This document shows positions 18,588 to 20,853 of a DNA stretch of 50,165 nucleotides, piece after piece. The notes beneath the pieces are model-generated. The model did no database searches and was not told the DNA's origin. It was given only the letters and a program-made list of their open reading frames with translations. The stretch's first letter is position 1; every line of letters starts with the position of its first letter. The position numbers and the translations under genes were made by a program. The stretch comes from a virus: positions 1-50,165 of IMG/VR virus record IMGVR_UViG_3300027579_000002; one strand, 5' to 3'.

Positions 18588-18955
18588 TGACTGACGCCGT
18601 GAATCATCCCCGTCATTATGCCAAGAATGGCGGCATTGAATGTATTGAGGCTATTGAAGCTTCAATGGACCAAGACGAATTTCGTGGATTCCTGAAAGGG
18701 AATGTAATGAAATACGTTTGGCGCTATGAAGAAAAAAATGGCCTGGAAGATTTGAAGAAAGCCAGTTGGTATCTTGATCTTCTCATTTTTAATATGGAAA
18801 ACGAGCCACAGCAAGAAGCAGTTGAGGCTCTTGAGAATGCTTCCCAACAATGCGAAGGAGGATTCTGTCCAATGCCTGGCTCGGTTCAGCCGGTTCCTGG
18901 CATTCGCTACGATCTTCCCGGAAAGCAAATCACTTTTGCTCCCATTGAAAACTAA
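18587..18955 (+). CDS. DUF3310 (SaV-like) nucleotide kinase-type phage protein (122 aa)
   Basis: ATG 18587, [20 protein letters not shown]. The core [20 protein letters not shown], then [20 protein letters not shown] and [13 protein letters not shown], is the DUF3310 signature, a short family annotated as SaV-like or nucleotide kinase in phages, often placed with thymidylate metabolism genes as here. Its activity is not established. It ends at a bidirectional terminator and meets the HNH gene tail to tail. Confidence 0.85.
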
Positions 18956-19434
18956 GCAGCATTGCAACAAAGCCCCCATAAGGGGGCTTTTTCATGCTCA
19001 ATTGTTTGGTGCATCGGCAGCACAATCCCTTTCTTCTCGCACCATGCTTCAAGCTCCTTCTGGTCAGTGTGGGCGCTAACAAAGCTATTGCAATACACCC
19101 ATGCCATCACAATCTCCTCTCGCTTCTCGGTCCAGAATGGTTGCACTCGCCACCATTCCAGCATTGGAAGGTTTCCTTTACGAAGATTACAGCTTTTGCA
19201 TGCGGGAAGCATGTTCCAACGGCTGAAATGCGGGCCTCCTTTGCTCTTGGGAACAATGTGGTCAATCGTAAGCTTTTCTTTCCATTCCCCGCAATATGCA
19301 CAGGCACACTGCCCAAATGGTCCCCTCAGAAAATAATCTTCAAAAATACTCTTACGAAATCTACGTTTTGCATCTCCAGGGCGAAGTTCAATGAGAGAAT
19401 AAAGCAGCTCATCAGGACCATTCGCTCTTGGCAT
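18952..19434 (-). CDS. HNH endonuclease (160 aa)
   Basis: ATG 19434, [20 protein letters not shown]. The zinc/HNH core is [20 protein letters not shown], then GG ... [18 protein letters not shown]-x2-C, the D-H of the catalytic motif, N, and C-x2-C. Homing-type or free HNH enzymes cut DNA near phage genes. It stands alone on the minus strand at the end of the plus-strand block, the typical seat of a mobile HNH gene. The last codons ([11 protein letters not shown]) run through the bidirectional terminator stem at 18969-18990. No intron flanking signals seen. Confidence 0.8.
18969..18990. terminator. Bidirectional terminator between DUF3310 and HNH genes
   Basis: AAAGCCCCC-ATAA-GGGGGCTTT then ttc on the plus strand. 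It lies in the C-terminal codons of the HNH gene and 14 bases after the DUF3310 stop. Confidence 0.75.
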
Positions 19435-19514: not shown

Positions 19515-19730
19515 ATGGCTATGGACAGTTTCAAGGACGGCCTTGCAAATTTTGTAGCCACCATCACGGCTGGCATGTTGCTGTCAACAGGCGCCATGCT
19601 TATTGCAGTGGGCACTCAGCAAGCAAGAGTGGCAGTGCAAATTGAAAGCATCACCGAGAAGCTAAGCGTGCTCACAGATAAGATGAGCGACATTGAAACT
19701 AGAGTGCGCAGTTTAGAAATTAAGCGCTAG
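19515..19730 (+). CDS. Small membrane protein with C-terminal coiled coil, holin or spanin-type candidate (71 aa)
   Basis: ATG 19515, [20 protein letters not shown]. One transmembrane segment at about residues 14-34, then a charged coiled coil ([20 protein letters not shown] ...). It stands one gene ahead of the endolysin. This layout is common for small phage proteins beside lysis genes; it could be an antiholin, an accessory membrane protein or one half of a spanin pair. Confidence 0.45.
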
Positions 19731-19760: not shown

Positions 19761-19904
19761 ATGAGCGGCGCAGAATGGTTTGTTATTGGTGGCATCATTA
19801 TTGCCGCCGCCGACCAAATTCTTGATCGTTCCCCTTGGAAAAGCAATAACGTTCTTCAGCTTCTTCTTGAAGGCTTGAAGACTATTTTTCGCGTGAAGGG
19901 CTGA
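19761..19904 (+). CDS. Small holin-like protein (47 aa)
   Basis: ATG 19761 encodes MSGAEWFVIGGIIIAAADQI, a hydrophobic first helix, then LDRSPWKSNNVLQLLLEGLK and a basic end (TIFRVKG). It lies between the coiled-coil membrane protein and the endolysin, four bases before the latter. Short size, one helix and basic tail fit a holin or an accessory membrane protein. Comparable small WFVIGGIIIAAADQ-type proteins with a DRSPWKSNN segment are typical cyanophage orphan genes. Confidence 0.45.
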   Translation: MSGAEWFVIGGIIIAAADQILDRSPWKSNNVLQLLLEGLKTIFRVKG

Positions 19905-19908
19905 GGCC

Positions 19909-20853
19909 ATGTGGCCGTCAAATCGAGCATTCTGGGATGAATGCTTCCAAATTGCTCGTAAATATGGCGCTCGATATCCAGAGCTGGTAGCTGCACAATG
20001 CTGCCTAGAAAGTGGCTTTGGGAATCATACTTCTGGAAAGCATAATTATCTAGGCCTAAAAGGAAGTGGCACCACCACTTCTACGCAAGAATGGTATGAC
20101 GGTCAATGGGTGACCATTAAAGCTGGTTTTATTGATTTCCCTAGTCTTGCTGCTTGCATTGAATATTTAATCACGCGATGGTATAAAGACTATCGTCACT
20201 TTAAGGGCATCAATAATGCCCCTAATCGCTATGCAGCGGCGCGTATGCTCAAGGAGCAATCGTATGCCACGGATCCCGATTACCCCGCAAAACTGTCTAA
20301 GCTCATGAAGGAATATGCTCCTGAGAGCACTGCTTTTACTATGATTGGCCCCAAGAAACGTCCGCAAGATTTTGGCTTTAAGAAAGGCGATTCACATTTA
20401 ATTGTGAACGATGCAGTGGAAACCATGAAGGCTTTCTCATTTGAAGGGAAGCTCTTATGGGAAATCCCTTGTCTTGCTCGTGGACAATATAGTGATTTTG
20501 AATGGAAGATTACAAATTCAGACACTCCTCCAGGGATCTATAAAATTGGTGCCATTTACAAAGACTATGAGAAAGTGGGCGACAAGCCTGCTTATGATCG
20601 CACCCTCATGGCTTACGGCTGGTACAGCTTTGACATGGTCGAACTAGAAAATCAAGAAGCCGGCAATGGTAGGGCTGGAATTATGGTGCATGGTGGCGGA
20701 AGCGCAAATGGTTGGCCGGGAGCATGGGCTCCCAAGCAGCCATTAGTCCCCACTCATGGTTGCGTGCGTTGTCACAACATTGACTTGCGCGACAAAATCC
20801 TTCCGCTCACCAAAACCGGCACTGTCTTTATTAGCGTCTATCAAGAAGGTTAA
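19909..20853 (+). CDS. Endolysin: GH73-type glucosaminidase fused to L,D-transpeptidase-like domain (314 aa)
   Basis: The N-terminal domain (about 1-140) carries LVAAQCCLESGFGNH with Glu34, NYLGLKG and T-x-QEWYDGQW with Glu61, then YATDPDYPAKL, all as in GH73/FlgJ N-acetylglucosaminidases. After a hinge near residue 145, residues 160-314 form a YkuD-type L,D-transpeptidase: H261 in MVHGGG and PTHGCVR at 281-287 with catalytic Cys285, the family motif H-x(n)-[S/T]-H-G-C-V-R. GH73 cuts glycan chains; the second domain would act on peptide stems, normally by making 3-3 links or exchanging residues, which is unexpected in a lysis enzyme. It lies after two small membrane proteins. Confidence 0.8.
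   Translation: MWPSNRAFWDECFQIARKYGARYPELVAAQCCLESGFGNHTSGKHNYLGLKGSGTTTSTQEWYDGQWVTIKAGFIDFPSLAACIEYLITRWYKDYRHFKGINNAPNRYAAARMLKEQSYATDPDYPAKLSKLMKEYAPESTAFTMIGPKKRPQDFGFKKGDSHLIVNDAVETMKAFSFEGKLLWEIPCLARGQYSDFEWKITNSDTPPGIYKIGAIYKDYEKVGDKPAYDRTLMAYGWYSFDMVELENQEAGNGRAGIMVHGGGSANGWPGAWAPKQPLVPTHGCVRCHNIDLRDKILPLTKTGTVFISVYQEG

Follow-up and report, generated by a model that had tools for sequence, protein, structure and literature searches.

A GH73 glucosaminidase joined to a divergent YkuD domain in a cyanophage endolysin, and the changing glycosidase partners of that domain

In a virus whose hosts are cyanobacteria of fresh and estuarine waters, the endolysin combines a GH73 glucosaminidase and a YkuD domain, which has the L,D-transpeptidase (LDT) fold, in a single protein. 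The gene lies in a lysis cassette, the catalytic residues of its product are invariant among relatives, both domains are under purifying selection, and the YkuD domain is found with different glycosidase partners in other viruses and in host genomes. We see about an even chance that this is an endolysin with two activities, GH73 acting on the glycan and YkuD on the stem peptides, with a mainly hydrolytic outcome. The window, meaning the whole stretch of DNA that was analysed, is IMG/VR record IMGVR_UViG_3300027579_000002, positions 1-50,165 (50,165 bp). The features discussed here are collected in Table 1.

Table 1. Lysis cassette of the window and landmarks within the endolysin gene (TM, transmembrane segment; AF2, AlphaFold2)
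Feature	Position	Strand	Remarks
HNH endonuclease gene	18952-19434	-	between thymidylate-synthase-side genes and lysis cassette
Small protein, one TM then predicted coiled coil	19521-19730	+	holin- or spanin-like; ORF listed from TTG 19512
47-aa one-TM protein, holin candidate	19761-19904	+	phrog_22542; stops 4 bases before endolysin start
GH73-YkuD endolysin gene	19909-20853	+	314 aa; without signal peptide
GH73 glucosaminidase domain	19930-20319	+	about residues 8-137; PF01832
E34 codon	20008-20010	+	expected GH73 catalytic acid
Linker	20320-20349	+	residues 138-147; dN/dS 0.24
YkuD (L,D-transpeptidase fold) domain	20350-20847	+	residues 148-313; PF03734, AF2, Foldseek
Catalytic His261 codon	20689-20691	+	invariant
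T282-H-G-C285-V-R287 catalytic loop	20752-20769	+	C285 and R287 in 70/70 fusions
C285 codon	20761-20763	+	numbering in the earlier note correct

An earlier note on this DNA had described the gene as a GH73-YkuD fusion beside two small membrane proteins. Its open reading frame was recovered exactly, with GH73 first and YkuD second by Pfam, the two neighbours are real and have one transmembrane segment each, and the conserved gene order bears out the placing of the fusion in a lysis cassette. PHROG 3513, labelled 'endolysin', covers the entire protein (E 2.3e-58). The closest match among isolates is Synechococcus phage S-CBS4 gp063 (YP_005098362, 88% identity, annotated endolysin/lysozyme), which has the same architecture and both small upstream genes; its record names the glycosidase side alone and leaves the YkuD domain unmentioned. 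The trio of two small genes and endolysin is kept in order in S-CBS4 and also in the distant phages L264 and L285. The position, the adjoining membrane proteins and the missing signal peptide are all features of an endolysin. One of the two small proteins is probably the holin; the endolysin shows no sign of a signal peptide and is by default taken to leave the cytoplasm through a holin. In S-CBS4 an HNH endonuclease gene occupies the same place as in the window. A scan of the lysis cassette for consensus promoters and terminators gave no clear signals. Full-length homologues in S-CBS4 and in many IMG/VR contigs show that the fusion is widespread, which settles a doubt raised in the earlier note. 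A local oddity or an assembly chimera is ruled out by the ~460 IMG/VR viral stretches that encode the YkuD module and by several isolate genomes.

The GH73 domain matches PF01832 (Glucosaminidase) over residues 14-136 (E 8.8e-18, 65.6 bits against a cut-off of 30.2). Its LES and YATD motifs, the latter at residues 119-122, match those of the listerial Lmo1076 (3fi7) when the two are aligned, and both E34 and Y119 are invariant in the 70 distinct fusion sequences compared. The YkuD domain matches PF03734 over residues 203-294 (E 2.4e-6, 28.6 bits, above the gathering cut-off). The earlier note had called its motif complete, and H261 and THGC285VR287 are indeed all present, but the gap between histidine and cysteine (HG-X22-C) is unusually long. 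Conservation and dN/dS were computed on 70 distinct, gap-free, full-length GH73-YkuD fusions, in every one of which H261, G262, W269, W273, T282, G284, C285 and R287 are found. When all 53 aligned relatives are taken, whether fused or not, H261, G284 and C285 are still invariant and R287 is present in at least 90%. Median pairwise dN/dS among the fusions is 0.0585 for GH73 and 0.0609 for YkuD, against 0.24 for the linker. Because YkuD is under as much constraint as its partner and H261, G284, C285 and R287 are so well kept, it is very probably catalytic, and a degenerate YkuD domain is ruled out by the same residues and the equal dN/dS. The equal constraint also bears on a proposal of the earlier note, that the domain protects the wall or sets the timing of lysis, or that it is a passenger without a lytic role. 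Canonical LDTs do strengthen walls, but the domain is repeatedly fused or adjacent to lytic enzymes, and there is no reason for exporting a protector only after the holin has been triggered, so that the chance of such a role appears very slight.

The AlphaFold2 model of the YkuD domain is good (pLDDT 89.3, pTM 0.87). The full-length model reaches a pLDDT of 78 overall and is poor in GH73, where the alignment is shallow, and it was therefore left out of domain-domain geometry. In Foldseek searches of the PDB, the YkuD model matches YkuD-fold enzymes with a probability of 1.00, at TM-scores of only 0.5-0.6. The LD-carboxypeptidases Pgp2 (E 1.8e-6) and Bd1075 come first, with a small lead over Bacillus subtilis YkuD (1.2e-5), and mycobacterial LDTs and DpaA (8ikr) follow. 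Profile-profile comparison (hhalign) with host LDTs gives a probability of 84% (E 7e-6) with the Cys loops aligned; the domain profile found no LDT among PDB sequences, the link to those structures coming through fold comparison. Judged from fold and residues, the active-site geometry appears to be present, a point on which the earlier note had left room for doubt.

The YkuD family is best known for linking wall peptides, as L,D-transpeptidases. The class of an individual member can be judged from a few positions. Arginine two residues after the catalytic cysteine (C+2) marks transpeptidases, and alanine, valine or asparagine there marks LD-carboxypeptidases and DpaA (PMC8263019, PMC8938487). 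In all 70 fusions this residue is R287, which agrees with the transpeptidase rule and departs from the Ala/Val rule of the LD-carboxypeptidases. A tryptophan in the D-Ala pocket is the mark of a carboxypeptidase (PMC10653827); here the corresponding residue, placed two before the histidine from Csd6 numbering, is M259 (Cys or Ala in some). Known LD-transpeptidases and LD-carboxypeptidases follow the spacing H(S/G/D)X14-19C (PMC4599014), from which the X22 of the phage domain departs; 15 housekeeping YkuD proteins from cyanobacterial host genomes have X14-18. With its arginine, its methionine at the inferred tryptophan position and its X22 spacing, the cyanophage domain belongs by its sequence to a divergent YkuD family and is not a clean fit to either class. 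It shares the fold, the Cys/His pair, [ST]HGCVR and the arginine at C+2 with YkuD-type LDTs such as B. subtilis YkuD, LdtMt2 and E. coli YcbB, and differs from them in its X22 spacing, where they have 14-19, and in having neither signal peptide nor LysM. The YkuD fold is shared with the hydrolytic LD-carboxypeptidases Pgp2, Csd6 and Bd1075, the first and last of which are the best Foldseek matches, but these have alanine or valine at C+2, the pocket tryptophan and an NTF2 domain, where the phage protein has arginine, methionine and a GH73 partner. That the domain was recently captured from a housekeeping LDT of the host is ruled out by the far higher PF03734 scores of the host proteins (roughly 80-107 bits against 28.6) and by their shorter spacing. 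Relatives of ~60% identity do exist in host genomes, as prophage-like or GH24-fused copies.

Two other readings arise from these residues. A pocket methionine like M259 is found at the same position in DpaA, a YkuD-family hydrolase that is among the fold matches, and an amidase of that kind would free envelope proteins linked to meso-DAP and so loosen the outer membrane at lysis. This is highly improbable here: DpaA-like proteins lack the arginine, and no DAP-linked lipoprotein is known to us from picocyanobacteria. The arginine, being of transpeptidase type and invariant in the fusion family, fits instead a true transpeptidase that edits the wall in cis, by 3-3 linking or by exchange of D-amino acids, with a product that would be a preferred or less obstructive substrate for the glycosidase. 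As an example of such dependence, the muramidase TtsA needs peptidoglycan that has been edited by the LD-transpeptidase YcbB (PMC6996933). The T6SS effector Tlde1a kills via a modified LDT fold, by carboxypeptidation and exchange (PMC9638812). Tlde1a resembles the phage protein in that an LDT fold is turned on the wall of another cell, and it differs in its T6SS delivery and single domain. However, the glycosidases found with the module (GH73, GH19 and GH24, described below) are unrelated and unlikely to share one requirement for LD links, the module also exists without a fused partner, and new cross-links would work against lysis. Editing of this kind is thus unlikely, although the precedents give it some weight.

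The partners of the YkuD module were surveyed in ~260 loci fetched from the IMG/VR set, in which some contigs were fetched more than once. GH73 and YkuD are in one ORF in 198 of these. YkuD is followed by GH19 in one ORF in 13 (B23-like), and the same two domains are separate neighbouring genes in 6 (L094-L097 are among such loci). The remaining loci mostly have YkuD without a detected fused partner, and some are cut by contig ends. The domain order in B23 is opposite to that of the GH73 fusions, and its GH19 match has an E-value of 7e-4, under Pfam's own cut-off. A third partner is seen in S-CRM01, where g113 is a GH24 lysozyme without its C-terminus and the overlapping g112, which also encodes YkuD, begins with the missing end; an in-frame GH24-YkuD fusion is present in cyanobacterial chromosomes. 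The frameshift split in S-CRM01 (locus L083, 3234-4543) may be due to sequencing error, decay or recoding. In a tree of the module the main GH73, GH19, GH24 and stand-alone groups separate, with some weak branches and one GH73 fusion (L103) outside the main GH73 group, and the partners have therefore been joined more than once. In cyanophage PSS2, gp098 (locus L084, 3992-5218) is a two-domain lysin with a C39-type peptidase in the slot after GH73. Among 50,697 phage records the YkuD module is found in five, which come from three Synechococcus phages, as two of these have double entries; the whole protein as query matches 96 of the records, mostly via its GH73 part. One chromosomal GH24-YkuD gene is at L170 9389-10819, and the same locus is found in L171, L172 and L176, all Cyanobiaceae chromosomes. 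It looks like a domesticated endolysin, as apparent housekeeping genes flank it and no phage genes are recognised around it.

The module also occurs without any glycosidase beside it. In two T7-like contigs, G304 and G307 (42.5 and 47.1 kb), the YkuD gene adjoins the large terminase gene and is the sole free-standing wall enzyme by Pfam, on contigs that may be incomplete and by a search that could miss divergent lysins. Their other wall-active domains (DPBB/M15 and M23) are inside proteins of 837 and 1281 aa, which in size and setting resemble virion entry enzymes. One stand-alone podoviral YkuD gene is at L338 9789-10373. The statement that YkuD pairs only with glycosidases is too strong in view of these two podovirus contigs, with their peptidase- or DPBB-type domains in large proteins. 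A T4-like contig has YkuD alone and a separate GH24 lysozyme elsewhere. In brackish and freshwater Synechococcus and Cyanobium genomes, a small N-terminal domain precedes YkuD, and a gene for a small, probably two-TM protein follows. A phage major-head gene (phrog_212, E 4e-54) is close to and opposite this gene, and for that reason these loci are read as prophage-like elements. The small-domain YkuD gene and its holin-like neighbour were seen at L173 8285-10750, L174 and L175, WH 5701 being included. Such stand-alone copies would have nothing to target if YkuD were mainly a wall-binding module, one that stands in for an ordinary binding domain and tethers the glycosidase to stem peptides, possibly through the acyl-enzyme. 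The C-terminal site in the window, where many modular endolysins have their binding domains, and the fusion to different glycosidases are in line with such tethering, but the domain is N-terminal in B23, and binding alone would not account for a dN/dS of 0.061 with unchanging H, C, R and loop. We regard targeting as improbable.

That YkuD recurs with three sugar cutters of unrelated families, and also by itself, suggests that it helps to dismantle the wall. On the two-activity reading, the holin would open the inner membrane and the signal-less endolysin would reach the murein, where GH73, going by its family, would cut the glycan strand next to N-acetylglucosamine. C285 and H261 of the YkuD domain, again by family, would act on the stem peptides, at the bond that follows the L-centre of meso-DAP, and the acyl-enzyme so formed would at lysis be resolved mostly by water or free amino acids and not by new cross-links. 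The net effect would be that stems are trimmed and LD (3-3) links opened next to cut glycan, so that the thick cyanobacterial wall fails faster. Of the roles proposed in the earlier note, cutting or trimming of peptides is thus favoured over link formation or wall protection, because of the glycosidase partners, the C39 slot in PSS2, the lone podovirus YkuD and a fold nearest to LD-carboxypeptidases. The co-occurrence with host LDTs described below, which is confounded, and the grouping of YkuD with peptidase-type domains in PhaLP entries add support. The hydrolytic outcome is weakened by R287, an LD-transpeptidase signature, by M259 in place of the carboxypeptidase tryptophan, as in DpaA, and by the small Foldseek margin at TM-scores of 0.5-0.6 and the possible incompleteness of G304 and G307. 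In the literature searched, nothing was found on a YkuD enzyme acting as an LD-endopeptidase on intact sacculi.

Whether the hosts make a target for such an enzyme was considered in 300 Cyanobiaceae genomes, counting a host YkuD as canonical at a best E below 1e-15. A strong canonical YkuD protein is present in 163 of them and the phage-type module in 40, the latter in 39 of those 163 genomes and in one of the 137 that lack a canonical LDT (Fisher p 1e-10), a statistic confounded by phylogeny, genome size and incomplete assemblies. The pattern agrees with host LDTs creating the target. A stronger version of the lytic reading, tentative and on balance doubtful, is that the distinct cyanophage clade is a true lytic enzyme, either an LD-endopeptidase or an LD-carboxypeptidase, that can serve by itself as an endolysin, is freely shuffled among glycosidases and is limited to hosts with LD-transpeptidase products, whose LD links would be its target. 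The literature search found nothing on LD-transpeptidases in connection with cyanobacterial peptidoglycan cross-links, nor on LD links in picocyanobacterial walls. It is worth noting that 132 of the 300 genomes have no detectable YkuD-domain protein and that those listed are mostly small, which suggests that LD-transpeptidation may be absent in many picocyanobacteria.

The fusion had been called unexpected in the earlier note. YkuD in phage lysins is already catalogued, and the sequence of the S-CBS4 homologue has been public for a long time. PhaLP, in its account of lysin domains (PMC8310338), has YkuD as a rare catalytic domain with ten entries and puts it among the peptidase-type domains, and Table 3 of an earlier endolysin survey (PMC5017753) has it as a rare catalytic domain with three; the use of YkuD as a lysin catalytic domain is the same there as here. 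What looks new is the divergent cyanophage family, which moves among three glycosidase families and also occurs alone. Biochemical characterisation of YkuD-bearing phage lytic proteins was not found in the literature searched. If the domain is lytic, a transpeptidase fold joins the working repertoire of phage endolysins, the natural set of forms (fusions to GH73, GH19 or GH24, separate genes, lone copies) offers a way to measure what YkuD contributes, and there is a route to asking whether picocyanobacterial walls hold LD links. Searching BFVD with the YkuD model gave weak likeness to DUF5675 phage proteins and to parts of large marine cyanophage proteins (P-TIM68, and a GH19 protein of S-N03).
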